The notes under the pieces were generated by a model, which was not told the origin of the DNA, did not search any database, and saw only the letters and a list, made by a program, of their open reading frames with translations. Below are positions 18 through 19,837 of a DNA stretch of 20,046 nucleotides, piece by piece; positions within the stretch are counted from its first letter, which is position 1, and each line of letters opens with the position of its first letter. The translations under genes and the position numbers were made by a program. Source of the stretch: a virus; the IMG/VR virus record IMGVR_UViG_3300028892_000389, positions 1 to 20,046 of that record; one strand, written 5' to 3'.

Positions 18-620
18 ATGACTGGAATGCTTGAATATTATGGCCATGAACCAACAGTTCCAACTCAAGCAGATCTTTATGTTCCTGATATAACTACACA
101 AGGTGATGACATTGTCCAGCAAAATACACAAGATGTTGTCGATAATGGTTATTATGTTAGTTCAGGCTCAGGAATCTTCTCAAATAGTGGTACTATTGAA
201 GAGAATTTTGATAAGGAAGCTTATAAACAGGCACTAATGGCAGGTACTCAGGTAGAGTATTTGAAGCAAATTGGAGTCCCTGAAAACAAATTAGAATATT
301 TTGAGTCTAATATTAATATGGATGAACTTGGTTTTGCACAGGATATATATAGCACAGGAACACAAGCATTAAGTCTACAGACTGGATCAAGCTTAGGAGA
401 TATATACGGACAGACAGAGCAGCTTCAGCAAGCTTCTGGATTAGAGTCTAGTGGATCAATTGATTATGCAAAGACAAAGGCAACAAAGGGAGTAATGGGT
501 GACTATCTAAACCAACAGAAAGGATTGCAGACTCAGTTAGCAAGCTCCAAGAGTACTTTCTTCCAAGGGGCTGCAGAAGAGTTCTGGGATAACTTAACAA
601 ACATGGATAAATTTGGTTAA
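18..620 (+). CDS. Unrecognised phage protein, probable virion-associated, possibly 5'-partial
   Basis: A 200-residue open frame rich in Gln, Ser, Gly and Asp; no signal peptide, membrane segment or catalytic motif is visible. The C-terminal half (from about residue 105) has repeated Gln/Ser/Gly-rich helical stretches, and the protein ends in Trp-Asp-Asn-Leu. The ATG at 18 has a weak AGGA six bases upstream, but the frame has no stop back to position 1, so the real start may lie outside the window and this could be the tail of a longer protein. It sits 16 bases before the next gene, at the head of a co-directional run leading to two giant proteins, which suggests a structural or internal virion role. 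That role is inferred from position only. Confidence 0.65.
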   Translation: MTGMLEYYGHEPTVPTQADLYVPDITTQGDDIVQQNTQDVVDNGYYVSSGSGIFSNSGTIEENFDKEAYKQALMAGTQVEYLKQIGVPENKLEYFESNINMDELGFAQDIYSTGTQALSLQTGSSLGDIYGQTEQLQQASGLESSGSIDYAKTKATKGVMGDYLNQQKGLQTQLASSKSTFFQGAAEEFWDNLTNMDKFG

Positions 621-636
621 ATAAAGGAGATATGAC

Positions 637-2043
637 ATGGCAGTAACTTATGGAAATAAGCCAAGAATAGTAGTGGAAGAAAGCCCATGGGGAGACTTCT
701 TTGCAAGTTTACCAAATACGGTACTCTCCTTTATGCAATTACAAAATCAGCTTGACTATCAGCGACAGGAAAAGGAAAAAGATAGACAGTTTAGAGAATC
801 ACAGTTATATCTAAAGGATTTATTGGATACTAAACAGCTACTTCATAAAAGTCTTTTAAAGTCTAAGGAGATTGCTCAGGCAAAAGGACTTTCATTTGAT
901 ATAGCATTTAATAAGTTAGCATCTGCTTCTCCTGAATCTGTTACATCTGCAGGACCACAGGTAGCAGGTAATTATATGAATATAGTAAATCAGAAGATTA
1001 ATCAGTTAGAAGATATGGATTCAAGGTATGATGATGAACTTAAGTTAGCTGGCTTGGGAGCTAAATATGCTATGGAGATGGATACAGATTTTAATAGTCT
1101 TATTGATGCAGATGAGTTAATTGCATATAAAAAGGCTAATCCTGAATTATTAGAACAGCTAGGTGTCACAGAGTTCCCTAAGTCCTTAGTAGAAGGAGCC
1201 ATCAATAGGCTTACAGAACCTGAAGTTAGAGAGGAACAGCGAAAGCAAAAGGATTTAAATACTGCTATAAATATTATGCAGATTCAGTGGGACTTTGATA
1301 AAACTACACCAGGATATCAAGAAGATCCTAATATTAGTGATACGGTTAGAAGTGAGCGTAGACAGGCTAAAATAGCTCATAAGTTAGGGAATATCCCTGC
1401 TATGCAGAAGCATATTATAGCATCTGAGGATTTAAAATCTACAGATCCAACTGAAGCAGATTTACTAGAACAAGATCAAGAAGATGCTGACCTTAAGGGG
1501 CGAACTTATATGGATGAAATCCAAGATCAAATTACTAGAACTAGTGACAAATTCAAGGCAACTCTTGCTTGGGGGGCTGGGCAAGATTTCAAGCAAGGTG
1601 GTTTTCTATTAAATGTAGATTCACATAAAGCAAATATAGAGAAAACTCTTGAAAATTGGTTTACTAAAACTGCTGGCGATAATACAGACAGGTCAATTAG
1701 AAAGAAATATGCAAAGTATTTTTCACAAGCTGTTGGAACAGAGGCTCAAAAAAGAACAACTGCTGTTGGAAAAATGCTCATTGATCCAGAAATAGAGAAA
1801 GTGATCGGTAAGGATGATTTGATACGGAATAGTTTTGGTTGGGACGGAAGTAATGCACAAGAGAAAGCTGCTATTCAGGTTTTTCGTACTACTATAGATA
1901 TGTATAATCTTACATCTAAATGGTCAGGAAAGTCAGGTGGAGGTATATCGAAACTATTAGAAGGACTAGGAATTTCTAAGATAACTGGAACAGGAATAGA
2001 TCCTTGGCTTAATAATAGCAGACAATCAAGGGGGACTAAGTAA
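637..2043 (+). CDS. Helix-rich probable internal virion protein, 468 aa
   Basis: The start is well supported: an AAGGAG sits about eight bases before the ATG. Residues about 25-85 are strongly charged and coiled-coil-like (Gln/Glu/Lys/Arg-rich, with heptad-spaced Leu), and much of the remainder also reads as helical. The C-terminal 40 residues are Gly/Ser-rich. No signal peptide, membrane helix or enzyme motif is visible, and I do not recognise the family. Its stop codon overlaps the next ATG by one base (TAATG), so the two are probably translationally coupled. Placement before the giant proteins suggests a virion component such as an internal or scaffold-like protein; this is inference. Confidence 0.75.
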   Translation: MAVTYGNKPRIVVEESPWGDFFASLPNTVLSFMQLQNQLDYQRQEKEKDRQFRESQLYLKDLLDTKQLLHKSLLKSKEIAQAKGLSFDIAFNKLASASPESVTSAGPQVAGNYMNIVNQKINQLEDMDSRYDDELKLAGLGAKYAMEMDTDFNSLIDADELIAYKKANPELLEQLGVTEFPKSLVEGAINRLTEPEVREEQRKQKDLNTAINIMQIQWDFDKTTPGYQEDPNISDTVRSERRQAKIAHKLGNIPAMQKHIIASEDLKSTDPTEADLLEQDQEDADLKGRTYMDEIQDQITRTSDKFKATLAWGAGQDFKQGGFLLNVDSHKANIEKTLENWFTKTAGDNTDRSIRKKYAKYFSQAVGTEAQKRTTAVGKMLIDPEIEKVIGKDDLIRNSFGWDGSNAQEKAAIQVFRTTIDMYNLTSKWSGKSGGGISKLLEGLGISKITGTGIDPWLNNSRQSRGTK

Positions 2044-2933
2044 TGGCTAATTTTACTATCAATCCAGAAGAATTAATACAGGGCATGCAAGATCCAGAAC
2101 GTGTTATAAGTGCTGGTGGTGATATATTTGAGGAACAAAAAGGAATTACTCCAGATCAGGTAGCAGCCTTGGATGCATTAATGGGCAGTTTAATCGGACC
2201 AGCAGATGAAGGTGGTTCTTTTGAGAGCTTAGGTGATATTGTATCAAATCTTAGCCCAGAACAAGCAGCTATCTTTACCCCTCCAGCTAAAAGAGATGTC
2301 CCTAATTATCTAGCAGGAGCTCTACCTGGAGATCTACCATCAGGAGATCCTAATGAATATAATTCTATGATGCATGACCCTTACTATAAAGAAAAAATTC
2401 AACATCCAGGTACTTTTGAGGAATATGTTAGTAGCCAACCAGAAGCTAGAAGGGCTGGAATTAAGCTTCAAGAAAAAAGGTTCTTTCTTCAGTCTCAGTT
2501 TCCTGAGGTAGAAGGAGATATATCTCAAATAACTAGTAGTAAAAAGATTCAATCTGAGATTTTCAATAAAGCTGATGAATATGCTGAATCTGTAGTTGAT
2601 TCTAGTTATCATCAAATATTATCTAAAGAATATCAATTGAAGATACAGCCTATATTAGAATCTTTAAATTATATTGAAGATAAGGATGATTATAATGCTA
2701 CTTTAAACTTGCTTACAGATCTTAAAACTAGCATTACTGGTTCTACTGAATTAGTTGAGACTGTTGTAAACAAAGGCTCTATATTTAGCAATGATCAGAT
2801 GGCAGAATTTTTATCTTTTCCAAAGGAAAGGCAGGATGCTATAAAGCTCCAGATGAATGAGGACGAGAGAAACGAATTATTAAGTTATAAGAAGAGCCGA
2901 GGTATTAATCTAGCAGGATTCCAAAAAAAGTAA
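2043..2933 (+). CDS. Unrecognised acidic helical phage protein, 296 aa
   Basis: This gene starts inside the previous stop codon (TAATG), a usual sign of coupled translation. The protein is acidic and reads as mostly helical. An N-terminal region of about 110 residues is rich in Gly, Pro and Asp, and charged helices follow. There are no Cys pairs, no P-loop, and no membrane or signal segment. It stops only six bases before the ATG of the first giant gene, so it belongs to the same transcription unit. A structural or internal virion role fits the context, but no family can be named from sequence alone. Confidence 0.72.
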   Translation: MANFTINPEELIQGMQDPERVISAGGDIFEEQKGITPDQVAALDALMGSLIGPADEGGSFESLGDIVSNLSPEQAAIFTPPAKRDVPNYLAGALPGDLPSGDPNEYNSMMHDPYYKEKIQHPGTFEEYVSSQPEARRAGIKLQEKRFFLQSQFPEVEGDISQITSSKKIQSEIFNKADEYAESVVDSSYHQILSKEYQLKIQPILESLNYIEDKDDYNATLNLLTDLKTSITGSTELVETVVNKGSIFSNDQMAEFLSFPKERQDAIKLQMNEDERNELLSYKKSRGINLAGFQKK

Positions 2934-2939
2934 CTAGCA

Positions 2940-4592
2940 ATGCCATTAACTTACAATGACCTAGCAAAAACTCTCCGAGCACAATATCCAGGCATGTATG
3001 ATATAGATGTATGGACTAATGAAGATTTAGCTAAACGCTTTATCAACTTAGAGCCAGCACTCAAAGACTATGTATCTGATTGGGAACATCTATATGAACC
3101 TACTGCAGAAGATAGATCTGGAGATTTGTCGTTTATGTATTATCAATTTCGAGAACAAATGTCTGGAATACCAGAATGGTTTGTTGGATCTATGGCGGTT
3201 GCTACTAATATGGCAGGCATCCCTATTAGTCAAAATCTAGGTGCTTGGTCTGAAGAAATGCGAGCTGAATCTGCTGAATGGACAAGAAATTATCTTACAG
3301 AAAATCCTGAAATAGCAGGATACTTGAAATGGATTGAGGAAGAACCTATCACATTAGATAACTGGTGGCATTTGGAGATCTTCCAGAGAAGTCTAGCTCA
3401 AGCTGCTCCTTCTATGGTTACTATGATTGTTACAGATTTACTGCTAATTCCTATTACAGGTGGTGTGGGAGCCTTAGTTACAAAGGCAAAGGCTGGTAAG
3501 AAGTTCTTAGATGTATATAGAGGTATAAAAGGAGCAAGAAAGGTTGCCAGGGGTATTGATGTGGCTGAGGATGTTGGTGAGTTTGCGAAATTAGCTAAAA
3601 CAGTAGATAGAGCTAGGACAGCAGGTACTATGTTTTCTATGGGAGTATATGAAGCTGCTGGAGAATATTCAGAAGCTATGAGTTATCTTGTAGATGAGAA
3701 AGGTATGGATCCTATGCAGGCACAGGAGATTGCAACTGCATCTGCTGCTATAGTTGGTACTATCAATGGTATTATAGAGTATATGCCTTATGGAATGTTT
3801 AAGAATCAATTATTTACTAGTGCTGCTAAGAAGCAAGCTAATTCTAAAATTATAAAACGTGTTGCTGATTCATTCTTAAAAGATAGTAAGATAGCTAGGG
3901 GTGTGGCTAGAATTGGCAAGGGCGCTATTCAGCAGGGACTTGCTGAAGGAGGACAGGAGTGGGCACAACATATGGTTCAAACCCTTTCTCAGTTTGCATA
4001 TAAAAGTGGTTATGGAGATACAGAAGAAACAGCATTTGAAGAGTTTATAAAACAGGCTACTTCTCCACAAGCAATATCAGCTGCACATGCAGGTGGATCT
4101 ATGGGTGTATTAATGGGACCATTGGCTGTTGGTGGCCAAGGCTTAATTGCTAGACAGAGAAGAGTACTCGAAAGAGAGGATGAGCTTGGCGTATCCTTTG
4201 TAGGTGAACGTCCTCCACCACTAGATGTTGAAGAAGAGGGTATTACTGTAGAAGCTAAACTTGTTGAGGAAGATCTCTCTAAGAATGAATTGATAATGCG
4301 TTCATTTACAGGACAAAATCTAGATAATCTTAGTCTAAATACTCAAGTTGCAATGGATGCTATAGAAGAAGAGTTTGGTTCTCCTTCAGACATACAAACT
4401 GATCCTGAGATAGAAGCTAACTGGAAAGGTGCATTAGAAGATATTGTAACAGACGATCCTGGAGCTTTTGAGGATATACCCGATAGAGACCTTGCATTAG
4501 AAGCAATTGAAGAAAGATTAGGTGAAGATTTCAGGGTGTTGAAGAAGCTTGGACTCCACCTGCTGAAGAAGCTCCTCCTGTTGAAGAGGTAG
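2940..4592 (+). CDS. Giant virion polyprotein, N-terminal fragment (membrane-active region)
   Basis: First of three frame-broken pieces of one about 2,300-residue protein. Visible features: a Trp-rich N-terminal region; a hydrophobic stretch at about residues 158-180; and Gly/Ala-rich amphipathic segments near residues 270-290 and 380-400. Near residue 340 there is a Glu-Gly-Gly-Gln-Glu-Trp-x-Gln motif of a kind often seen in very large phage proteins with membrane-interacting helices. The normal protein ends near Glu-Asp-Phe (about 4529). Beyond that this frame turns into a low-complexity Leu/Lys run to the TAG at 4590, while the frame one base back reads as a sensible Pro/Glu/Ala linker. 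No clear ribosome binding site precedes the ATG, so coupling to the upstream gene is likely. Inferred role: ejected virion protein that helps DNA or cargo cross the host envelope. Confidence 0.7.
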   Translation: MPLTYNDLAKTLRAQYPGMYDIDVWTNEDLAKRFINLEPALKDYVSDWEHLYEPTAEDRSGDLSFMYYQFREQMSGIPEWFVGSMAVATNMAGIPISQNLGAWSEEMRAESAEWTRNYLTENPEIAGYLKWIEEEPITLDNWWHLEIFQRSLAQAAPSMVTMIVTDLLLIPITGGVGALVTKAKAGKKFLDVYRGIKGARKVARGIDVAEDVGEFAKLAKTVDRARTAGTMFSMGVYEAAGEYSEAMSYLVDEKGMDPMQAQEIATASAAIVGTINGIIEYMPYGMFKNQLFTSAAKKQANSKIIKRVADSFLKDSKIARGVARIGKGAIQQGLAEGGQEWAQHMVQTLSQFAYKSGYGDTEETAFEEFIKQATSPQAISAAHAGGSMGVLMGPLAVGGQGLIARQRRVLEREDELGVSFVGERPPPLDVEEEGITVEAKLVEEDLSKNELIMRSFTGQNLDNLSLNTQVAMDAIEEEFGSPSDIQTDPEIEANWKGALEDIVTDDPGAFEDIPDRDLALEAIEERLGEDFRVLKKLGLHLLKKLLLLKR

Positions 4593-5269
4593 CTCCAGAA
4601 GCAGTAGTAGAACCAACAGAAGAAGTTCCTCCTGTTACCGTAATAGAAGAAGAACCTGAGCCAGGAGAGGTGGTAGAAAGAGAAGCTCCTAAAGATCTAT
4701 TTAAGAAGAAAGCTCCAGCTGAAGTAACCCCTGAAGATGTTCATAAAGCAGCGGAAGCAGTTGGTATGGCATGGGATGATGATGCAGACTTTATGGCTCT
4801 TTCCAAGAAAGTTACAGGTCAAGAACGTATAGATGATATGACCTCTGAAGAGAGGGCTAGTCTTATTTCTGAGATAGAGAAGGCTCCAGCTGAAGAGGAA
4901 TATTTATGGAGCAAAAAAGATCAAGAAGTATATTTATGGAGCAAAGAAGATCAAACTGTATATACAGCAAGTAAGGTGTGGAAAGATTCTATGCCTGCAG
5001 CTACCCCTGAGCAAATTGCAAAGTATCCAGTAAAACCTCTTCCAGAAGAAGCTCCAGCTAAAGAGAGGCAACAACCAATTATACCTCCAGTACCCATTAC
5101 TAATGAGGAAAAGCGTGTTATGCTTGTAGAATCTGCTGAGGAGATACAACAGCTTCAGAAGGAGGGTCTTTTCTATACTACTCCTGGTGCAAAACAATAT
5201 TTTAACTTGGAGATGTACGTATTCCTGATGTTGACAAGAAGTTTAGTGGTCTGGGTACGAGATTTGTAA
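4526..5269 (+). CDS. Giant virion polyprotein, middle fragment (linkers and small modules)
   Basis: Continuation of the giant protein in the -1 frame relative to 2940-4592; open from 4526 with no credible start of its own (a GTG at 4670 is the nearest candidate). It opens with a Pro/Glu/Ala-rich linker and continues with a small helical module (about 4724-4880). Next is a 10-codon tandem repeat with YLWSK at its core, then an EAPAKE linker. A stretch leading to Lys-Gln-Tyr-Phe-Asn-Leu (about 5192-5209) follows. After that this frame becomes implausible and the sequence continues naturally in the next -1 frame as Gly-Asp-Val-Arg-Ile-Pro. Most likely one gene broken by two single-base losses, rather than a separate gene. 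Confidence 0.6.
   Translation, partial: RFQGVEEAWTPPAEEAPPVEEVAPEAVVEPTEEVPPVTVIEEEPEPGEVVEREAPKDLFKKKAPAEVTPEDVHKAAEAVGMAWDDDADFMALSKKVTGQERIDDMTSEERASLISEIEKAPAEEEYLWSKKDQEVYLWSKEDQTVYTASKVWKDSMPAATPEQIAKYPVKPLPEEAPAKERQQPIIPPVPITNEEKRVMLVESAEEIQQLQKEGLFYTTPGAKQYFNLEMYVFLMLTRSLVVWVRDL
4901..4960 (+). repeat. 30-bp in-frame tandem duplication
   Basis: Two adjacent 30-base units (4901-4930 and 4931-4960) differ at about four positions and encode YLWSKKDQEV and YLWSKEDQTV. The length is a whole number of codons, so the repeat extends the protein without shifting frame. It lies in a linker region of the giant protein, between the small helical module and the GNAT-like domain, where length changes are probably tolerated. 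Confidence 0.85.
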
Positions 5270-5310
5270 ATGCTAAGAAGAAAGAATTTTTAGCAAAAGG
5301 TCATGATCAT

Positions 5311-8300
5311 ATGGAAATTATAGCACAGCCAGGATCAGAAGGCTTCTGGGAAAAGCAGGGCTTTTATCATACTGGAGTAACTGAGGATTATCGTGATCCT
5401 GAGACTGGAGAGTTATTAGAACCACATAGTAAAATGAGATTAGACTTACCTGTTGTATCTAAAGAAGCTCCAGCTGAAGAGGGTGAAATGATTACCCTGT
5501 ATAGGGCTGTTCCTGTAGATAAGGAAAATATAGTGATAGATGGCAATATTGTTTCTCCTGCTGATAATAATGATGCTAGGGCAATAATGGAAAAGTTTGG
5601 GCAACGTGGAGTGTGGGCAGCAAGAAAGAGAGAAGATGCTAAAGGGCAAGGTGGAAAACAGGATAAGATGCTAAAGTTTAAAGTACCTAGGAAATGGTAT
5701 GAGCAGAAGGCTAAAGAGCTTGGATTAGAAGGTGATGAACAGATAAATATGTTCTTAGGTGGTATCCCTGCAAAATATTTAGTTAAAGATGAAGCTCCAA
5801 CTGGACTTACAGAAGAGGAAGCAGAAGCAAAATTAGCAGAGTATCTAGGACCTATAGAAAGAGTACAATTTCCTGCAGCAAAATCTTTTGATGACATACA
5901 TGCTATTGTTGATGGTAAGCGGGTTGAACTAACTAAAATACAAAAAGAACAGCTTAATAAAATTAGGGAGGGCAAGGATAGTGCTAGCAAGTATATGCGA
6001 GCTGGGGCTGAAGTTGCTCATCTAAAGTTTGGAAGGGACTTAATTCGCCAACAAGAAGCTCCAGAAATTGTTGAGCCAAAAGCTCCTGTCATAGATGATA
6101 TCAAGGAAGTAAAGGGCAATCGTTTTGCTAATGAGAAAGAGATTGATGAGGTTCAGGAAGTTGATATCAGTGAGACCAGAGAAGGGTTAGCTGACATAGA
6201 AGGAACTAGTGACTATAGAAACTTTAATAATATCAATGCAAAGATTAATCATGCATTAGGTATTAGGATATTTAAGGAGACCGAGAAAGCATGGCATACA
6301 CAGCAAATTATAGGTAATTATGCTAATGCTGATGAAGCAATAGATGCTACTATCGAAGAGTTTACTACAGTTAAAGATAATAAGGGTAATATTATAACTC
6401 CTGGTATTAGACCTGAAGTTCTTACTCCTGGAATACGTAATGCTCTTAGGAATAATTACTATAGACTGCATAATATGGATAGAACTAATCAGAATGATCC
6501 TTCTAAGAATGATCAAGTTAATGCTGAAGTTATACTCCCTACTCATGGAATACCTAGGATACAGATTAAGAAAGAAAAAAATAAGATCCTTAAGAAGACT
6601 AATCCTAGTTATGCAACCTCACTGTCAGCTGTTACTGATAGAGATCTTGTCTGGATATCTCCTAGAGATATTTACGATAGAAAAATAACGGCAGATATAC
6701 TAGACCATAGCATTGTAGAAACAAATAGTAGATATCAGCCTATCACTACAAATGAAGTATTAACACTGCATTACTCTGAAGCAAATAAGGGTCTCTATGC
6801 TTTTTCCTTTGTAAAGGGTGAGGGTAAAATTGCATTCACAAAGATCAATCCTGAACATAAAGAGCTAGCAAAAGATGTTAAAAAATTAAGAGAGTACTGG
6901 AAGAATGAAGGTATGTCTAAAGAAGATATTGGGAATTACATATTGGATCCTAGTCTAAAGCATACTTTTCCTAATCCTGATGGGACTGGAGATATAGTAT
7001 TAGATCCTGTTAACCTATCTGCAGCTAATGTAGCTAGATATGAAGCTATTAAGAGGCATTATCCTAAGTTCCTAGATGATCCTGGTGGGATGCCTAATGT
7101 GTTTAAGCGCATGAAGATACCAATGACTCCTACTATACAGTTAAAAGATTTTCGTCCTGTTAAAGTAAAGATTGTTAATAAAGATAATCTTGTATATGTC
7201 TATCCAGATCGAGTTGTTAAAGCTACTGAAACTGGTATCTATAAGGGTGATGGCGGTACTCCTACATCTAAACAGTTCTTTAAAGATTCAGCTAAACTAT
7301 GGGGAGAAGGTGCAAATAGTCGAATTTCTAAGAATGTAATATATGAAAATAATGAATTAGGTACTTTGATGGTTAAGCATTTAATGTTTCAACCACAAGG
7401 AAATGCTTTAATTTATGAGAACTATGGTCAGGAAAATGAGAAGCTGATAGGTGAACTTCGTGATGGTGATATTTATGCATTTAATAAACCTAAAGCATGG
7501 ACCAAAACTAGCCTTGATAAGTATCTGAAAGACAATGATCTCATAGGAGCCGATTCTAAGCGCCTTATTGATGCCTTTACGGACGAAACTGCAGATAACA
7601 TAGGTAGACTGACATCTGCAGTAAATAGTGTCTTAGAGGTCCCTAAATTCAAGGAATTAAGCCTACCATCAATTAATGATCAATTAGAGTTCATTAGTTC
7701 TAAAGAAGGATTGCTTAAACAATTAGTTCGTAAAGTGGCTAGTCCAGAGGAGATGGAGCTTATTGATCATCTTCTTACAAGTGATGAAGCAAAGGTTACT
7801 ACCGATTCATTTGGTGAGTTTGCTAAAAGTGGAGAGACATTTGAAGTTCAAGGTGAATCTCTAGGCTTTATTTATAGTACTGAAGGACGAAAAGATAAGA
7901 CTCCATATCCAGATCAACATCATAATTATGTTAGGGATGAAGCATTACAGCAAGCTTGGAGTGATTATTATATACCAAAAATGCATGAACAAATTCGTAA
8001 TGTATTTAATAAGTCGAGAGGTAAAGTGATAGATAATATTGCTAGCTTTGCAAATCATATACGCAATAGAGATACTGAATCTATTGATGATCCCACAGCA
8101 GATTCCTTTGAAGTAGGTATGGGCTTACATTATTCAGGTGCACAATTCCTTGATGTATTAATGCAGAAAAAAGGTGTTATCCCTGCAGTTCAAGTAGCTA
8201 ATCAAAAAGGCATTTCTGAGAAGATGCAGTCAGATATACAGGGAATATTAGATCGTAATGAAGTAAGTCCTTCAAAGAAAAATGCTAGTACTATATATGA

Positions 8301-9843
8301 ATCTTATGCTAAGGATAAAGGTATTTCTTTTAAGGAAGCTAAGAAAAGTGCTAGCATGGAAGATATTAATGAATGGCTTGCTGATGAGAATACTCCTGAT
8401 GTATATCTATTAGGTTTTAGATCTCCTACTTCGTATGTACATGGTGCTGGAATGGTAAGAGTTCACAGTATACATGATAGCTTAGATGTTGTATTTATGC
8501 ATTATCTAGATATAAAAGTTAATTATGAAGCTGATGGAGATGGTGATACATTTAATATGGTTGCATTACCTGACGAGCTGACAAGATTATATAGAGAATA
8601 TTATGAGTCTGATGAAATTAGGCAACAGTTAAAAGCTATCAACCTTGATGATTTTCTACCTAAGAAACCTAGAGAATATAAGTTCTCAAGTATTAAAGAT
8701 ATGGCAGCATTAACATCTGCACTAATGAGAGGTAAAAATGCAATACCTGAAATTGCTAAGACACAGCGTATTTATGGCCAGCTATTAGATAGAGAATTTT
8801 CTATGAAGATAGAGGGAGTTAAGATTGGATTAAGATCTCCTGGATCGTTACAAAGTACAGATAACTTCAAAGCTGGTAGCAAGTATACAATGAGCGATTA
8901 TCTGAGAATTTATTTACAGGCAGCTGTAGATAATGGTAAATATATGTTGCTTGATAAGTGGGATTATAGTAATGAAAAATTGAGAAGAAGTCTATTTATA
9001 ACTGAAGATAAAGAGGACATTACACCTACTCAATGGAAAGCGATAAAGATAGTGGTGGATATACATGGTCTAAATGGTCAGATAAGGAAGGGTAAAGACT
9101 CTGACCTAGGAATATGGGGTCTTAAAACAATGATAGAGAAAAGTGGATTCTATCTATCCTATACACAAGATCGTGAAGGATTTATTAGAAATAAGATAGC
9201 TGAAAGATACCCTGAGTTATATGTTAGCGAGATAAATTTCAAAGAAGGCTTATCTAATCAGGAAGCAGCAGCAGTACAGCCTGCAATTATGTATAATGAT
9301 ATGGCTAGGACTGGAGAAGAGGGTAGTCCTTTTTCATTTAATATGGCACGACATCAGGATGCTCACGATGTAGCAATTCAAAAGATACAGAACTTGAAAG
9401 AAGATATTGTTGAATCTGATAAAGGTTTATATTATGGTCAAGATATGGGACAAGATCTGTATGATATGTATGATGAGCTTGCAGATGCTGGAGTAGAGAT
9501 AGGATTTTTAGGATGGTCGCATAATGAAAAGATGGTTGACTTTGCTGAAACATATTCTAAAAGATTTAATGCTCTTTCTGATAATGCTAAGAAAGTAGCT
9601 ACCTTTACATTCCTAGAGGGAGTTAAAAGATTGACTGGTAAACAAGTGCATTATCCTCTTAACTTACCCCCTATGAGTAAAAGGAAAAATGGTATAAGCC
9701 TTCTCGATCACAGGGTAATGAGATCGTATTTCAAAAAATATAATGATAGATTGTTATCTCCAGAAAATATTAGAGATGATGTTATAAAAGCTAACTCTAG
9801 ACATACTGGATTTCTTACATTTATAGCAAAGAACTGTTTATAA
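5311..9843 (+). CDS. Giant virion polyprotein, C-terminal fragment: GNAT, ART-like and DxDGD RNA polymerase-like regions
   Basis: Coding continues upstream to about 5206 in this frame; the ATG at 5311 lies inside a GNAT-like domain and is not a natural start. In order: the end of the GNAT-like domain (residues 1-50 here); an ADP-ribosyltransferase-like domain (about 60-165, beginning ITLYRAVP and ending in a Glu-Gln...GGIPAKYL segment); linkers with EAP motifs; then a long region to the end. That region has RSPT at about residues 1037-1040 and EADGDGDTF with Asp at 1075, 1077 and 1079. This spacing matches the R-x-P ... NADFDGD signature of RNA polymerase beta' and the DxDGD motif of YonO, eukaryotic RdRP and crAss-like virion polymerases. 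The lysine-bearing partner barrel should lie upstream; a stretch around 7140-7500 is a candidate only. Inferred role: virion-packaged transcription of early genes. The stop overlaps the next ATG (TAATG). Confidence 0.75.
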   Translation: MEIIAQPGSEGFWEKQGFYHTGVTEDYRDPETGELLEPHSKMRLDLPVVSKEAPAEEGEMITLYRAVPVDKENIVIDGNIVSPADNNDARAIMEKFGQRGVWAARKREDAKGQGGKQDKMLKFKVPRKWYEQKAKELGLEGDEQINMFLGGIPAKYLVKDEAPTGLTEEEAEAKLAEYLGPIERVQFPAAKSFDDIHAIVDGKRVELTKIQKEQLNKIREGKDSASKYMRAGAEVAHLKFGRDLIRQQEAPEIVEPKAPVIDDIKEVKGNRFANEKEIDEVQEVDISETREGLADIEGTSDYRNFNNINAKINHALGIRIFKETEKAWHTQQIIGNYANADEAIDATIEEFTTVKDNKGNIITPGIRPEVLTPGIRNALRNNYYRLHNMDRTNQNDPSKNDQVNAEVILPTHGIPRIQIKKEKNKILKKTNPSYATSLSAVTDRDLVWISPRDIYDRKITADILDHSIVETNSRYQPITTNEVLTLHYSEANKGLYAFSFVKGEGKIAFTKINPEHKELAKDVKKLREYWKNEGMSKEDIGNYILDPSLKHTFPNPDGTGDIVLDPVNLSAANVARYEAIKRHYPKFLDDPGGMPNVFKRMKIPMTPTIQLKDFRPVKVKIVNKDNLVYVYPDRVVKATETGIYKGDGGTPTSKQFFKDSAKLWGEGANSRISKNVIYENNELGTLMVKHLMFQPQGNALIYENYGQENEKLIGELRDGDIYAFNKPKAWTKTSLDKYLKDNDLIGADSKRLIDAFTDETADNIGRLTSAVNSVLEVPKFKELSLPSINDQLEFISSKEGLLKQLVRKVASPEEMELIDHLLTSDEAKVTTDSFGEFAKSGETFEVQGESLGFIYSTEGRKDKTPYPDQHHNYVRDEALQQAWSDYYIPKMHEQIRNVFNKSRGKVIDNIASFANHIRNRDTESIDDPTADSFEVGMGLHYSGAQFLDVLMQKKGVIPAVQVANQKGISEKMQSDIQGILDRNEVSPSKKNASTIYESYAKDKGISFKEAKKSASMEDINEWLADENTPDVYLLGFRSPTSYVHGAGMVRVHSIHDSLDVVFMHYLDIKVNYEADGDGDTFNMVALPDELTRLYREYYESDEIRQQLKAINLDDFLPKKPREYKFSSIKDMAALTSALMRGKNAIPEIAKTQRIYGQLLDREFSMKIEGVKIGLRSPGSLQSTDNFKAGSKYTMSDYLRIYLQAAVDNGKYMLLDKWDYSNEKLRRSLFITEDKEDITPTQWKAIKIVVDIHGLNGQIRKGKDSDLGIWGLKTMIEKSGFYLSYTQDREGFIRNKIAERYPELYVSEINFKEGLSNQEAAAVQPAIMYNDMARTGEEGSPFSFNMARHQDAHDVAIQKIQNLKEDIVESDKGLYYGQDMGQDLYDMYDELADAGVEIGFLGWSHNEKMVDFAETYSKRFNALSDNAKKVATFTFLEGVKRLTGKQVHYPLNLPPMSKRKNGISLLDHRVMRSYFKKYNDRLLSPENIRDDVIKANSRHTGFLTFIAKNCL

Positions 9844-12800
9844 TGGCTAAGACGATATGTAAAGATCATATGGATGTTATAGGACTCTATGCAGATCAGG
9901 ATCGTAGAGAGAGTGAACTCTTTGGACTAGATACAACAAGACCTATGTCTTCCTGGTCTTCCAAAGTTATGCAAAGAATACTAAAGATGGTTAGGAGTAA
10001 AGATTCTCCTATTAATCAAAAACATATTAAAAAGGCAATTAAAGACGAATGGGGCAAAGTAGAGAAGGTAAAAGTGTTAGCTCTCGAATATGGTATGCTA
10101 ATAGAAAAGAATCCTGGATTAGAGGATATTATGAAGCACTTTATAAGAATGCAGTATACCGCAATGGAACATGGAGATCCAAGTGGTAAGGCTAAAGAAG
10201 AGCGTGATACTCCTGAGATTGAATGGAAGAGAGATAAAAATAAATTAGAAATCGACTTGGCGAGTTTGCCTGAGAATGTTTTGAGAAATATAGTGAATGA
10301 ATTAAAAGGACTTATTCGTCATGGCATGGGAGAGAATATAGGAAAATCATGGCTTTGGGGACTATTTGGACCTCTTGATGTTCAGGTGACTACGTCAAGG
10401 ACTATGACTAGGAAAGAATCTTCTGGGGCTTTATTTGCAATGCATGAGGCAGTTAAGAAGTTCCCTAGAGCACTAGCCAGCCTGCTTCAAAGATTCTCTG
10501 GAGCAGATCCTACCCATAAAGACTATGTAACAAGCTCAACTGGGAAAAAGATACTAAGAAAGTATGGGATAGATCAGATAATAGAGAATATTGAAAAACT
10601 AGCTACTGATCCAAGTTTATCCAAGCTAGGAATGGCTCAATCTAAAAGAATTCTTTATGATAGATTTGTATGGTATAATGTAAGGGATGATCTTGGTAAT
10701 CGTAGAATAAAGATTGATGATGATGGTAATATGACTATTGCTATGTTGCATGGAGCTACACGTGATGAGGAAGGTAATCTTATTCTGTGGGACAAATCAG
10801 CTGAAGAATCGCAAGTTAATGCACCAAAATATGAATTTAGTAATTATATATCAATAGAAGATTATAGTATAGATCAGAAGACAGGCAAAAATCTTCATGT
10901 TCCTATGAATAGGACTATGATAAGGAAATTTAAAGAAGAGTCTGAAAAATATGCAGCATTACATAAGAATGTTTGGGAATTTCTACAGAAAGAATTTGCA
11001 GAAAGTGAGAAGGAACAGCATGCTCAGTTAAAAAGTTTAGTCCCAAAAGGATGGACAGATGAGGATGTAGATAGACTATTCTTCGGTCCAGATCCTACCA
11101 AGTTCAAGAGAATTGATAGAAAGACTGGCAAAGTTACTCAGTGGTCTGACTTACATAAAGAGCGACAACAATTAATTTTGCAACTTTATAATAATGCAAC
11201 TAGATATAGTATTCTTAAACCTTATGTATTTAATGCTAGAAATGATGATGCTCCCAGTGAAGGTAGAGCATCTTTCCCTGTTCTTTACAACCAAATGCGT
11301 TTTTCTTATATGTGGGATGATATGATAGCGGATAAGGCTGAAGAATTAAGGAAGATAAACAAAGAGCTAGATAATCCTAGACTTAAAGATCCTAAAGATC
11401 CTAAGCTCAAGCGGTATAAGAATGGCTTACTGCAAGAGAGAAAGGTCCTGATTTCGACTATAACAAGAGCTGAGAAGATAAGAGATAGTAAAGATGACTA
11501 TCCTGTAGATATGTCTACTGGTACATACTTAGCATTAGGTGGAGATGTTAAACATGCTAAACATATTAGCAATCAATTTGATATAAGAAAAGCACGCAGC
11601 GATAAATCTGTTTATTCTGACTATTTACAACATAATTTTACTCAGCTAGAGAGAAATAAATTAACCATCGAACTTATAAAGAATTTAAAGAGAGCTCGAT
11701 CAGCGCCAGTACAGGATTATATTTTAAATCAGTATAAAGTATCTCTGTATCAGCCTGATGCTGCTTCAGGATTTGGTTGGTTGAAATGGGATAGTGATTC
11801 TGTATCTAAAGTGTTTGGAAAAGATGCATCAAAAAGAAGAAATGTTTCTGCTGCTAAAATAGATCGAAAGACAAGACAAGTTCTTTCCTTTATATCAGGT
11901 AACCTTTTACGAGGATGGGGTACTGCTGCTCAGAACTATACTGCTGTAATCCAGAAATTAATTGATATAGGTATTGATAGATTGGATGATGCATACCAGA
12001 TCTTAGGTGCAGGAGATAAAAATATTGATCGTCTTATTGGCTTATCGGGAGTTGTAGATTTCAGGGAATTCTTTAGTAAAACCCTTACAAATGATGCAAA
12101 TACTCTTGGAGCAGAGAATAAACATATCATGAGAATGACAAAAGAAATGCTTAAGTATTGGAAGGCAGTAGGCAAACTGCCCAAGGCAAATACTGAGGCT
12201 CAAATAGCATCAAATAACAGGACGAAGGCAAAATTACATCAAGAATTAGAAAAGAAATTAGGAGAAACTATTAGATCTATACCTCCCCCTAGTAGGTTAA
12301 AGAAAAGATCTGCAATTCAAGGGGATATGCATAGAACTAATATTCTTAGTAAATGGGTTAACTATGCTATTAATAAAGAGTATGAAGCAGCTCCTTATCT
12401 AAAATCTGCTCCTGCAAAGACTCTTGCCACTTTAACAGAATGGTGGGCAAGTGCTCAAAGAAGAGGACATGCCCCAACAATGGGTAAGACTGAACAAGAG
12501 TTACGTGCTTTAAGTTTCATCATTGGAGTACGAGCTGCTATGAGAAAAGGTGATATAACTGAAATGCCCTTAGGAGATCTTTTAAAGTATCCTGTATTAG
12601 TAGAAAAAGCTATTGCAATTGGAGTTGATTATGTAGAGACAATGGATTTTGGTTTGTCTAGACAGGATTTAGGCCAAATGTCCTCAGGCAATATTGGAGC
12701 ATTCTTTACACAATTTAAGGTATGGTCTATGCAGAAATTCTCTAAAGATCTTGATACTGTAAGGCTAGCATACCAAGAGTTAAAGAATACAGATAGCCAA

Positions 12801-13331
12801 TATGTAGATTTTAAGGCAACTTCAAAGATGCTTGAATCATTGGTTAGATATAATAAATATAGTCAAGACCATTTACGTACTGTAAGTCCTAGATTAGCAG
12901 CATTCAGAGCATGGATCTTTACTCAAGGACTATGGACTGCTGTATGGGACTTTGGAATCATGGGCCCATTAACACTAATACCAGGAGTAAAAAAAATAAC
13001 CAGGCTTGTACCAGGAATTCGTACTATTGGAGGTTCTACTTCAGACTTGATTAGTTTAATGCTTCTTGTGCCAGGACTTGCTGTGGCCTTAACATACGGA
13101 GATGGAGATGATGAGGTAGAGAAGATTATAGACTATTATTCTAAGAAGACTCTTCTTGGATTTGGTGCTAGATGGACAATAGATGCATTCCTTACTATGC
13201 TTGCCATCATAGAAGGGGAAGATGAAGATGAATATATAGATAGAGCAAACAAAGTTATATCACCATTACTTCCCCCTCCAGCAAGAGAACTTCAATTAGC
13301 CTATCCCTTACTTAAAAAAATTCTTGATTAA
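9843..13331 (+). CDS. Second giant virion protein with hydrophobic C-terminus, 1,162 aa
   Basis: Begins in the stop codon of the preceding gene (TAATG). The first 1,000 residues are charged and largely helical, with no signature enzyme motif that I can place. Around residues 950-975 is an Asp-Phe-Gly-Leu-Ser ... Gly-Ala-Phe-Phe-Thr-Gln-Phe stretch. I associate that kind of stretch with the C-terminal parts of very large phage proteins ejected with DNA, but it is only suggestive. Hydrophobic segments follow near residues 1030-1050, 1070-1085 and 1113-1127, with an acidic patch after the second and third. Together with the upstream giant protein it probably forms the ejected virion protein set; it might also complement the polymerase region. 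Its end overlaps the convergent membrane-protein frame by 24 bases. Confidence 0.72.
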   Translation: MAKTICKDHMDVIGLYADQDRRESELFGLDTTRPMSSWSSKVMQRILKMVRSKDSPINQKHIKKAIKDEWGKVEKVKVLALEYGMLIEKNPGLEDIMKHFIRMQYTAMEHGDPSGKAKEERDTPEIEWKRDKNKLEIDLASLPENVLRNIVNELKGLIRHGMGENIGKSWLWGLFGPLDVQVTTSRTMTRKESSGALFAMHEAVKKFPRALASLLQRFSGADPTHKDYVTSSTGKKILRKYGIDQIIENIEKLATDPSLSKLGMAQSKRILYDRFVWYNVRDDLGNRRIKIDDDGNMTIAMLHGATRDEEGNLILWDKSAEESQVNAPKYEFSNYISIEDYSIDQKTGKNLHVPMNRTMIRKFKEESEKYAALHKNVWEFLQKEFAESEKEQHAQLKSLVPKGWTDEDVDRLFFGPDPTKFKRIDRKTGKVTQWSDLHKERQQLILQLYNNATRYSILKPYVFNARNDDAPSEGRASFPVLYNQMRFSYMWDDMIADKAEELRKINKELDNPRLKDPKDPKLKRYKNGLLQERKVLISTITRAEKIRDSKDDYPVDMSTGTYLALGGDVKHAKHISNQFDIRKARSDKSVYSDYLQHNFTQLERNKLTIELIKNLKRARSAPVQDYILNQYKVSLYQPDAASGFGWLKWDSDSVSKVFGKDASKRRNVSAAKIDRKTRQVLSFISGNLLRGWGTAAQNYTAVIQKLIDIGIDRLDDAYQILGAGDKNIDRLIGLSGVVDFREFFSKTLTNDANTLGAENKHIMRMTKEMLKYWKAVGKLPKANTEAQIASNNRTKAKLHQELEKKLGETIRSIPPPSRLKKRSAIQGDMHRTNILSKWVNYAINKEYEAAPYLKSAPAKTLATLTEWWASAQRRGHAPTMGKTEQELRALSFIIGVRAAMRKGDITEMPLGDLLKYPVLVEKAIAIGVDYVETMDFGLSRQDLGQMSSGNIGAFFTQFKVWSMQKFSKDLDTVRLAYQELKNTDSQYVDFKATSKMLESLVRYNKYSQDHLRTVSPRLAAFRAWIFTQGLWTAVWDFGIMGPLTLIPGVKKITRLVPGIRTIGGSTSDLISLMLLVPGLAVALTYGDGDDEVEKIIDYYSKKTLLGFGARWTIDAFLTMLAIIEGEDEDEYIDRANKVISPLLPPPARELQLAYPLLKKILD

Positions 13332-15587: not shown

Positions 15588-16079
15588 TTATTTTAATCCT
15601 CTAACGTATGCATTATTTGCAAGACGTACTCCAGGAATTGTAGTACCATCCTTGAGCTCTTGTAAAATACGTTTTTTATCTAACCTTTTAGTTATTACTT
15701 CTATCCAATATTCTCTTGGAATTGTCTCTTCATCTATAATATCTACTGCTCCTGATGATGTTGATATTTTAATAGGATTGAATACAGAATGCTTTGGTAA
15801 TTGTTTTACTTCAGCATATGTACCTACAACCAACATCTTGATTCGTTCTTGAGCTCTTTTCATTACAGCGGTATGGGTTTTCAATTTCTTGATTTGTTCT
15901 TCAAACATCTCAATTTCTTTTTCTGCCTCTTTATACATCCAGAAGATTCCATCTTCTTTTTGATGCATTTCTGTAAAAAGTTCATCGACTCTTTCCATAA
16001 GTTCTTCTTCATTGAATATCTCATAATCATTCTTTGCTAATACTAGTTCACGAGTAATTTCAACTAACGACTTGTTCAT
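15588..16079 (-). CDS. Siphovirus Gp157-family protein, 163 aa
   Basis: The layout matches the Sipho_Gp157 family: an N-terminal helical region, a long coiled coil with Glu-Glu-Gln-Ile-x-x-Leu (about residues 55-85), then a short beta-rich end with DIIDEETIPREYW, Asp-Lys-Lys and a Leu-Lys-Asp-Gly-Thr-x-Ile-Pro-Gly-Val motif. Family length is close to this. I chose ATG 16079: GGAGGT sits eight bases upstream, whereas the GTG at 16085 is only two bases from it. The start lies inside the end of the primase-helicase gene. Gp157 proteins are common beside phage recombination and ssDNA-binding genes, but their biochemical role is unclear. Confidence 0.85.
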   Translation of the reverse strand: MNKSLVEITRELVLAKNDYEIFNEEELMERVDELFTEMHQKEDGIFWMYKEAEKEIEMFEEQIKKLKTHTAVMKRAQERIKMLVVGTYAEVKQLPKHSVFNPIKISTSSGAVDIIDEETIPREYWIEVITKRLDKKRILQELKDGTTIPGVRLANNAYVRGLK

Positions 16080-17823
16080 AGGCACATACCTCCGTTCCAG
16101 TTATTCTTACATCTTCTACCCATAGCTTGACATTTAAGGTTTCACGCTCACGATTAGCTTCAGATTTAACATGTAATTGTGTTATTTGTCCATCTGCTCC
16201 TCTGATAGGATTAATAGATATTAGTTTATTTGCATTATATGCAATTCTAAACGAACCTTTAGCTGATGCTAAATTCATACCTTCATTGTATGCTTGTTTC
16301 GTTATCTCACTAACAGCAAATACAATGATGTTGTTTTGTACTGCTAGTTCCATTAATGCCTGCGATGCTTCTTCTACTTTCATATTATTATCTCTCTGTT
16401 TACTGCGAAGTAATCCCATATGGTCAACAACTACTATTTCAGGTTTAATAGGTAACATAGATATTCTCTTTTGTAATTCAGCTGGATAACAAGATCCATA
16501 ATCTACAGTTAACCATTCAAAACCCTTAGTAATTCCATTACGCATACGTTTATAATGTTCTGCAATTTCCTCTTCTGACCATCCATTTTCTATCATTACA
16601 AATCTAGACCATATTTGTCTAGGTGACATTTCCATTTCCATAAAGTATGTTGGTTTCTTCCAATGATTAACCCAATTCTGTAATAGCATTGTTTTCATTG
16701 CTTTAGGAGGAGCTTGTATAATAATTACTTCTCCAGGATATATAGGGAATTTTTGTCCATACATAGCACCTAAATCTAATGGTTGTTGATTTGTAGTATA
16801 GAATTCAGACATTATTTTATCCATATCTATAGCTGTCATTATTGATTGATTCTTTTTAGATTTATACAGTTTGCATGTATTCTTACACAATGAATCTTTA
16901 ATAGGATCATCGCAACCAAATCTATAACCAGCTCCATCATGACCTTCATAACAGTTGTTGATAATTGAATCCATCTCTTCTACAGTGAATGGTTTATCAG
17001 GTAAATCTACAGATAATCTCCAATGTTCTGCAAGGATTCTTACTATTTCTTCTGGGTATAACCATCTGAAATGTGCAACAACTCTTAATGCATATGCATG
17101 TCTATTACCGAATTTAGTACCTTCTAACATAGATTGTATACAAGGATAGTTCACAGAATCTGGAGCTCTACCTATTGATTTTGCAGCAGAAACATTTTCT
17201 TTATTAGTATGTTTAATTAAGACATCAAATACTGGTTCACATTCTAATTCTCTTGGTACTAATGATTGAGGTTTAGAAGCATATTCTAAAATATGATCTA
17301 TATGTTTATGAATCATTTCATCTGGAATATGAACTTTCCATTTACCACTTTTACCATTTCTAGTATTAAGTAGTCGAATTAATCTCGTCTTATCAGTTAC
17401 AGAAGGATCAGCATAATCATATATACCAGCAGATTTTAATGCAAACTTTACTTTGATATGAAGATTTTTGTCAGGCTTCCATCTAAATGCTGTTGCTGGA
17501 ATACCAACATGAAATCCAGTACCACTAAAGTATAGATTATATGGTATCTCTAAATCTTTTAATACAATAGTAAGACCGATAGTCTTTTGTCTTGCATTAT
17601 CTGGATTAGATCCATCTATATCTAGAATGAGTTCATCTGGCATGTACAATAATCCATCATATCCTGATAAAGAATTCTTCTTCTTTGTGTATTCTATCAC
17701 ATAATCATCGTAATCCCATAAAGACATAAATGTATCTTTACCCATATTCATCCAATCTGATACCTTTTCTTCTTGTACGAAATGATGTCTATTGTTTAAT
17801 CCAAATGCTAGTTCTTTAATCAT
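16060..17823 (-). CDS. AEP-type primase fused to DnaB/RecA-like helicase, 587 aa
   Basis: N-terminal half: archaeo-eukaryotic primase (AEP) signatures, LDID (Asp68, Asp70) as the metal-binding pair, then SGTGFH (His105) and a TRLIRLLNTRNGKSG stretch. A Cys cluster near residues 295-325 (CYEG, FGC, LCKNTCK) looks like a zinc-binding linker. C-terminal half: RecA-fold helicase with GEVIII followed by a P-loop APPKAMKT (about residue 370), Walker B EIVVVDH (about 463) and an IIVFAVSEI motif 3, where DnaB usually has Ser-Gln. Both P-loop glycines are replaced (Ala and Met), which is unusual but may be tolerated. Likely role: unwinding and priming at the phage fork. GGAG precedes the ATG, which overlaps the upstream stop (ATGA). 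Confidence 0.85.
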   Translation of the reverse strand: MIKELAFGLNNRHHFVQEEKVSDWMNMGKDTFMSLWDYDDYVIEYTKKKNSLSGYDGLLYMPDELILDIDGSNPDNARQKTIGLTIVLKDLEIPYNLYFSGTGFHVGIPATAFRWKPDKNLHIKVKFALKSAGIYDYADPSVTDKTRLIRLLNTRNGKSGKWKVHIPDEMIHKHIDHILEYASKPQSLVPRELECEPVFDVLIKHTNKENVSAAKSIGRAPDSVNYPCIQSMLEGTKFGNRHAYALRVVAHFRWLYPEEIVRILAEHWRLSVDLPDKPFTVEEMDSIINNCYEGHDGAGYRFGCDDPIKDSLCKNTCKLYKSKKNQSIMTAIDMDKIMSEFYTTNQQPLDLGAMYGQKFPIYPGEVIIIQAPPKAMKTMLLQNWVNHWKKPTYFMEMEMSPRQIWSRFVMIENGWSEEEIAEHYKRMRNGITKGFEWLTVDYGSCYPAELQKRISMLPIKPEIVVVDHMGLLRSKQRDNNMKVEEASQALMELAVQNNIIVFAVSEITKQAYNEGMNLASAKGSFRIAYNANKLISINPIRGADGQITQLHVKSEANRERETLNVKLWVEDVRITGTEVCAYEQVVS

Positions 17824-18399: not shown

Positions 18400-18469
18400 A
18401 GGGGAGCCATGGGTTGGCATCCGACTGACTCCCCTTATTATCTCTTCCTAATGGAAGATTACCCAATTA
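18400..18469 (-). promoter_or_regulatory. Hairpin element 1 (TAATTGGG ... GGGGAG-CTCCCC) after the SSB-like gene
   Basis: On the minus strand, TAATTGGG begins at the stop codon of the SSB-like gene and is followed by AGGGGAG (18429-18435) pairing with CTCCCCT (18400-18406). An inner GCCA/TGGC hairpin lies inside. The CTCCCC arm is followed by TAAATTTAAAAGGAG, so it could pair either with GGGGAG or with the ribosome binding site of the zinc-ribbon gene, giving a possible translational switch. A related element occurs at 19921-19999. Confidence 0.5.
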
Positions 18470-19003
18470 GAATGGTAATTCAGCAGTTTCTTCTCTCATC
18501 TCTGTTTCAGGAGAAGCTACATGTACAGTAGTTGTTGTACTGTTTCCAGGTGTGTACTTAGCAAACCTAGTTTCTGCTCTCTTTTTCCAATATGCTACAT
18601 CATTATCAGTAAAAGTATCCATTGCATTAGAGAATTCAGCAGGAGCTACAGATGAATATGCACGAGTGTATTCGCCCTCTTTATAGAATAATATATTCAG
18701 TTTAGTACCAACCATTTGTTCTGCAGAATCATCTATCTTTACAACTTTATCTCCACCAGTACCCTCTAATACTTCAGTAATACCAGCATTAGCAAAACGA
18801 TAGACATTTCCTATTGCAAATTCTTCACCATCTTTACCTTTCTTAGCATAAATTCTAAGTGTAAAATTTTCAGGATAATGTTCAAATCCAAGTTCTAAGA
18901 ATTTAGATTCATTATAAGTACCATATTTTGCTGTACTTATAGTTAATTCATGCCAGCCTGTAGCCCAATCAGAGCCACCTTGTCTTACTGTTAATGTTCT
19001 CAT
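18467..19003 (-). CDS. SSB-like single-stranded DNA-binding protein, 178 aa
   Basis: The N-terminal about 120 residues read as alternating beta strands with aromatic residues, consistent with an OB-like fold, though I cannot place it in a named SSB family. The C-terminus is a flexible Thr/Ser/Glu-rich linker ending EETAELPF, which resembles the acidic (Asp/Glu)...Pro-Phe tip that SSB proteins use to recruit partners. It is translationally coupled to the Sak4-like ATPase upstream (TAATG, with AAGGAG 12 bases before the ATG); Sak4-type recombinases commonly pair with SSB genes. Inferred role: protects ssDNA and loads replication and recombination proteins. Hairpin element 1 starts at its stop. 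Confidence 0.65.
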   Translation of the reverse strand: MRTLTVRQGGSDWATGWHELTISTAKYGTYNESKFLELGFEHYPENFTLRIYAKKGKDGEEFAIGNVYRFANAGITEVLEGTGGDKVVKIDDSAEQMVGTKLNILFYKEGEYTRAYSSVAPAEFSNAMDTFTDNDVAYWKKRAETRFAKYTPGNSTTTTVHVASPETEMREETAELPF

Positions 19004-19806
19004 TATGCAGTTACTCCTTCACTTTTTTTAGTTTTTTTTTCTGTTTTAGTTTGTGTTTCAGGTGTAGTTATTAATGTCTTAAGAGCATATGTTTTACCAG
19101 ATCCTGGAGTTCCAATAACTAATATTTTAGAACCTTCAAATCCAGCTTCTCTTGAAACATTTAATACTAACTGATAATCTTGAGGAATTTCTCTATCAAG
19201 TAAACCAGTTCTATCCTTAGCATGATCATATTTCTCAGATCTTCCTGTTACCCATACATAACTAGCATTACCTTTTATATCAACATTAGTTTTTGTATAG
19301 AATACAAAATCAAACCATTTAGCTATATCTTCTTTGGTTGAACCATCAATATAAGGTAATATCTTATTTTGACCATCATCCATGGTTTGAAGTTTGCTAT
19401 GACAATTACATATTACTACGCCAGGTATTCGTGTTACAAATTCTAAACATCCATCAAGTTTACTCTTGAGTTTACCCCAATCTTGTAACATCATTTTACC
19501 AGTTTCTTTATTTACTAGACTTCTCATGAATTTTTTACTTAATTCTGAGAATGTATCTATTATTATAGCATCTATAGTAGGAGCACTTTCTCTTAAAAGA
19601 ATACTTTCTTGTTCTTCTTCAATTTTTAGCTCACCTATATGTTTTTCAACAACAGTTTTCTTCTTAGTATATAATTGTCCAATTACATGCTGGAATGAAT
19701 CCCATGTAGATGGACGAAGTACACTATATCCAAATAACTGCTGTATTACTTTTTCACTTCCAAGAGTTTGACTACCATGCTCTAGGTCGAAATACAGAGT
19801 TTTCAT
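19003..19806 (-). CDS. Sak4/RecA-like ATPase with C-terminal Walker A (apparent circular permutation), 267 aa
   Basis: The protein starts with MKTLYFDLEHGS, normally the strand after the P-loop in Sak4/AAA_24-type ATPases. It continues with Walker B IDAIIIDTFSE (Asp84), a LQDWGKLKSKL helix, the VVICNCHSK sensor strand, and a YVWVTGRSEKY...DRTGLLDREIP end region in the usual Sak4 order. Only then comes KILVIGTPGSGKT (Walker A, Gly232-Thr239), followed by a Lys/Thr-rich tail. So the first strand, P-loop and helix of the fold have moved from the N- to the C-terminus. The start is firm: AAGGAG precedes the ATG and an in-frame TAA lies directly before it, so there is no hidden N-terminal P-loop. 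The stop is coupled to the SSB-like gene. Likely role: ssDNA-annealing or recombinase ATPase. Confidence 0.82.
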   Translation of the reverse strand: MKTLYFDLEHGSQTLGSEKVIQQLFGYSVLRPSTWDSFQHVIGQLYTKKKTVVEKHIGELKIEEEQESILLRESAPTIDAIIIDTFSELSKKFMRSLVNKETGKMMLQDWGKLKSKLDGCLEFVTRIPGVVICNCHSKLQTMDDGQNKILPYIDGSTKEDIAKWFDFVFYTKTNVDIKGNASYVWVTGRSEKYDHAKDRTGLLDREIPQDYQLVLNVSREAGFEGSKILVIGTPGSGKTYALKTLITTPETQTKTEKKTKKSEGVTA

Positions 19807-19837
19807 TTACTTTCTCCTTGTTATTATTGACTATTTT

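Follow-up and report, generated by a model that had tools for sequence, protein, structure and literature searches.

A probable circular permutation of the Sak4 recombinase core, with the P-loop at the C-terminus, in uncultured tailed phages

A 267-residue protein encoded on the minus strand of a viral contig is very probably a naturally circularly permuted Sak4, an ssDNA-binding and annealing recombinase of tailed phages that would work with its own SSB. The window analyzed here is the whole 20,046-nucleotide stretch of IMG/VR record IMGVR_UViG_3300028892_000389 (positions 1 to 20,046), and the open reading frame occupies 19003-19806. Its motifs stand in swapped order, the swap is conserved among viral relatives, both parts of the protein are homologous to one canonical core, and a confident model shows a single domain. 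A circularly permuted Sak4/RecA-like ATPase had been proposed in a sequence-only reading of this DNA; the order swap is now borne out by profile rotation, by 89 homologues, and by a core match to 8RC5, the solved Sak4 of phage 52A. The features of the locus are these:

19003..19806, minus strand: putative circularly permuted Sak4-type RecA-like ATPase gene, 267 aa (ORF, PHROG 124, AAA_24, 89 distinct homologues)
19186..19800, minus strand: residues 3-207, canonical Sak4 core from beta2 on, canonical positions 40-233 (hhalign)
19780..19788, minus strand: D-x-E motif (D7, E9), on the strand next after the P-loop helix in the canonical order (invariant, n=40; aligns with the canonical D-x-E)
19555..19569, minus strand: Walker B strand AIIID, residues 80-84, with D84 (D84 invariant; aligns with canonical IIDSISEL)
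19210..19221, minus strand: AKDR motif, residues 196-199, common with canonical Sak4 (AKDR/AGER) (A196-R199 invariant)
19069..19143, minus strand: relocated beta1, P-loop and alpha1, residues 222-246, canonical positions 15-39 (hhalign; model strand 226-232, helix 240-245)
19090..19113, minus strand: Walker A GTPGSGKT, residues 232-239 (translation and invariance)
19006..19059, minus strand: tail, residues 250-267, low confidence and variable in length (pLDDT <50 for most; varies among homologues)
19807..19819, minus strand: in-frame TAA directly 5' of the start codon, and AAGGAG ribosome-binding site (sequence)
18467..19003, minus strand: coupled SSB-like gene, 178 aa, tail ending TAELPF (overlaps the permuted gene by TAATG)

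Walker A and Walker B are read in the translation where that reading had placed them, the latter as Asp84 within IIIDT. Residues D84, G232, P234, G235, G237, K238 and T239 are invariant in an alignment of 40 sequences, as are D7 and E9 of the D-x-E motif and A196-R199 of AKDR. By analogy with RecA and Rad51, E9 is likely the catalytic glutamate. The gene boundaries described earlier also hold: a TAA abuts the ATG with AAGGAG upstream, and the TAATG overlap of stop and start joins the gene to its SSB-like neighbor.

Matches to family profiles come in two pieces. PHROG 124, a family of Sak4-like ssDNA annealing proteins, matches residues 3-209 on profile positions 66-249 (9.2e-22), while a second Sak4 PHROG, phrog_2872, matches the tail, residues 226-249 on positions 3-26. 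The Pfam model AAA_24 (PF13479) is matched at 9.9e-14, with 52 bits against a cut-off of 27, in two stretches that carry residues 2-199 on positions 24-194. Each of the 13 records with relatives has a single AAA_24 gene whose profile match exceeds the cut-off, and in four of them positions 23-195 come before positions 2-24 in the same frame, the reverse of the order in the AAA_24 profile itself.

For direct comparison, a canonical reference profile was made from eight phage proteins that match the query weakly, several with Sak4 or RecA-like annotations. All eight carry an N-terminal P-loop, in agreement with the ordinary Sak4 order assumed at the outset. The query profile, A1, holds 40 relatives of the window protein. 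When A1 is aligned to the canonical profile with hhalign, residues 3-207 fall on positions 40-233 (score 117, P 5e-17) and residues 222-246 on positions 15-39 (score 45, P 1e-5). Rotation of the columns at residue 215 yields a single alignment that spans positions 15-233 and raises the score from 117 to 156. Among the 23 rotation points scanned, the maximum is a plateau at 205-222, with lower scores on either side, so the check that the sequence-only reading had suggested recovers the whole core in one alignment and peaks at the predicted junction. The rotation peak and the two-piece alignment together locate the cut in the alpha1/beta2 loop, after the P-loop helix, and show beta1 joined to the canonical C-terminus. 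Searched with an HMM of canonical Sak4, 79 of 80 relatives give the main core first and the P-loop stretch second; none gives the reverse order. Identity to canonical Sak4 is about 22-31%.

An AlphaFold2 model built from A1 has a pLDDT of 90.7 and a pTM of 0.86. Its C-terminal strand (226-232) and helix (240-245) are clearly defined, unlike most of residues 250-267. In VIA-align, the best solved match is the Sak4 of phage 52A (8RC5; Z 12.5, rmsd 3.1, 167 aligned), with model residues 1..222 on chain residues 49..259. In the structure paper for that protein, Lys41 and Thr42 lie at the nucleotide (PMC11846896), and as the alignment begins at chain residue 49, the model starts just past the P-loop of 8RC5. 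The next matches are RAD51, DMC1, RadA and RAD51 paralogues, at Z of about 7.5-10.8, and the Sak4/Rad51-family matches span model residues 1-222 or 1-210. The aligned ranges in the Rad51-family proteins likewise start after what we take to be the positions of their P-loops. The earlier expectation, that the C-terminal GTPGSGKT forms the first strand, P-loop and helix of the same core, stands in part: residues 1-222 match the Sak4/Rad51 core past its P-loop and the C-terminal P-loop strand is modelled confidently, while its position in the core is a matter of inference. A plain Foldseek search of the PDB gave no significant match for the permuted model, as expected for a permuted chain in an order-dependent search. 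Foldseek against viral models returned A0A516LUR7 (BFVD/UniProt) as a full-length match (E 7.7e-34, TM 0.86/0.92, 45% identity). To judge from the models, this unnamed viral protein is apparently another permuted member; the permuted family is already in public databases.

Scans of viral contigs returned 201 loci, a count that includes overlapping fetches of the same contigs, and these reduce to 89 distinct proteins that are 46-90% identical to their queries. In three relatives the contig stops short of the P-loop, and three others are missing their front part; the rest have D-x-E first and the P-loop last. Wherever the C-terminal end is present among the 89, the P-loop lies there, which supplies the homologues of like order that had been sought, and neither the ORF nor any of the 89 contains a second P-loop. 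Among the matches listed, the next relatives down share 27-31% identity, and those that were complete and inspected show the ordinary order. An identity gap thus separates the two orders among those matches: at 46% or above all are permuted, and at 31% or below the complete ones inspected are canonical. No two-P-loop intermediates or close relatives of canonical order were found among the matches listed from the viral contig scans. A pattern-based scan of bacterial and archaeal genomes, which distant relatives could escape, found no relative, and tblastn against 50,697 phage records found no match at 1e-3; at weaker E-values, matches annotated as Sak4 or RecA-like span only part of the query. 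All permuted members come from uncultured virus contigs, with no isolate in the phage collection. One related record of 62 kb encodes terminase, portal and major head protein, which identifies the carriers as tailed phages.

Other explanations of the swapped order were weighed against permutation. The window is a 20 kb contig of an uncultured virus, and an assembly or annotation artefact might be suspected, but the order recurs in frame, beside the same neighbor, in 89 distinct proteins from many separate metagenomes, and such an artefact deserves almost no credence. Because the order is conserved across independently assembled contigs, assembly artefact is rejected and chance is excluded. It is also highly improbable that the protein has decayed into an inactive or regulatory form without a working ATPase, since Walker A, D-x-E, Walker B and AKDR are invariant down to 50% pairwise identity.

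Two further alternatives concern the P-loop itself. The N-terminal P-loop might have been lost and an unrelated one gained at the C-terminus, making the order convergent without any permutation. P-loops are short and alike across families, and the tail also matches FtsK, ClpX and EccC; yet what it matches in the canonical profile is precisely the segment that the main core leaves uncovered at the front, the two ranges abutting (15-39 and 40-233), and it is matched at positions 3-26 of a Sak4 family, PHROG 2872, so we hold this replacement to be improbable. Alternatively, the P-loop module could be swapped into a neighboring subunit, with ATP sites formed only in a filament or ring. The ATP sites of RecA-family proteins sit between protomers, and the new C-terminal module follows a short linker helix at 211-220, both of which suit such an exchange; the single-chain model is nevertheless confident across the module (pLDDT 95-98 for residues 201-240, pTM 0.86), and exchange between subunits appears unlikely. 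We favor a permuted Sak4 in which, as the model suggests, the P-loop would return to its usual place within its own chain.

The permuted protein resembles canonical Sak4, as known from HK620, from phage 52A (8RC5) and from PHROG 124, in being a RecA/Rad51-like core-only ATPase encoded next to an SSB-like gene, and it has the same motifs from the D-x-E strand through the AKDR region. It differs in having the P-loop with its strand and helix at the C-terminus and in beginning at beta2. Ordinary members have an N-terminal P-loop and this protein does not; it is therefore classed as a permuted variant of Sak4. The Sak4 family is known, and the permuted architecture, related to it by homology and context, appears new. 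As the sequence-only reading noted, circular permutation is established in P-loop GTPases, namely the YRG family (YjeQ, YlqF, YqeH) and cpRAS (PMC2430557). Those cases share with ours the natural permutation of a P-loop NTPase and a changed order of nucleotide motifs, but they are GTPases where this is a RecA-type ATPase, their cut points differ, and YRG members act in ribosome assembly. Searches of the open-access literature turned up no permuted core in Sak4, Rad51 or RecA. The wider claim, that the RecA/Rad51 superfamily has here its first natural circular permutation, fixed in one phage clade, with a filament contact that may be altered and possibly with swapping of the P-loop module, is offered as a possibility on the doubtful side.

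In the proposed architecture, the canonical C-terminus would be fused to the canonical N-terminus at a junction of about residues 208-221, and the new termini would lie in the loop that otherwise leads from the P-loop helix into the strand after it. The protein would then begin with the D-x-E strand and end with strand, P-loop and helix, followed by a disordered tail. The permutation probably arose once, through sak4 duplication and fusion followed by loss of the outer pieces; no evolutionary intermediate of that route was found among the relatives. RecA-family proteins use the canonical N-terminus in subunit contacts. With that N-terminus buried in the fusion, filament assembly may use a different contact. 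The RecA-family core is among the most conserved folds, and annotation and profile methods take the N-terminal P-loop order as fixed. A viral family of the opposite order would mean that both the fold and a filament-forming ATP site can survive re-wiring, and such a family offers a test, made by nature, of which chain connections are important. Permuted proteins may be split or wrongly annotated by profile searches.

The neighboring gene suggests a role. The HK620 Sak4 is an ATP-dependent annealase with an SSB encoded next door, its stimulation needs the last six residues of that SSB, and ssb adjoins up to 80% of sak4 genes (PMC5928155). By analogy with this pairing, the same job is proposed for the permuted protein and its SSB-like partner: the permuted Sak4 may bind and hydrolyze ATP, assemble on ssDNA, and anneal or recombine phage DNA with help from the SSB of the coupled gene. 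In each of the 85 distinct loci that extend far enough, a related SSB-like gene lies downstream. Its product has no Pfam match; its model matches OB-fold proteins, best PrgE (Z 7.7; Foldseek E 3e-3, prob 1.0), with PriB and SsbA at lower Z, and we regard it as a putative SSB with a predicted OB fold. These proteins usually have an acidic ..PF tip: 52 of 80 SSB-like relatives end in PF, and the window protein ends TAELPF.

The other recognizable minus-strand genes of the window encode a primase-helicase, a Gp157/Gam-like protein and a RusA-like resolvase, all functions of replication and recombination. The primase-DnaB-like helicase (16060-17823, minus strand) has QAPPxSMKT in place of the Walker A pattern GxxxxGK[ST], with both glycines replaced; this form is conserved in aligned helicase relatives, and the Walker B region VVDHMG is retained. 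The Gp157 or Mu Gam-like end-protection protein (15588-16085, minus strand) matches PHROG 253 at 4e-22 and PF05565 at 2e-18. The plus strand from 18 to 13331 holds large ORFs of up to 1510 aa. Five plus-strand ORFs scanned gave no clear PHROG match; 2940-4592 had only a weak match to virion RNA polymerase (0.0056).

Two observations were made in related records. In the 62 kb record, similar small genes, in pairs of 149 aa and 105 aa, lie near both ends (L211:505-951, L213:18137-18583), which suggests duplication or terminal redundancy. In many relatives the permuted gene is also directly preceded by a ubiquitin-like module, in a region that lies past the end of the window:

L002:2233-5886, L029:1885-5610, L060:2346-5431, L053:2749-5764: upstream ubiquitin-like module

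The module includes a JAB-like protease, in which EIGG..HSH..SGTD looks like a JAMM motif and which has no relative in the phage collection, and a protein of 500-670 aa in which a stretch resembling E2, HPYIS..C.G, was picked out by eye. Locus L002 adds a 74 aa ThiS-like protein with the C-terminal end KGGGQYFINL. A ThiF/E1-like protein (PF00899, 5e-19) completes the set and occurs in 41 of the 70 distinct loci with enough upstream sequence.
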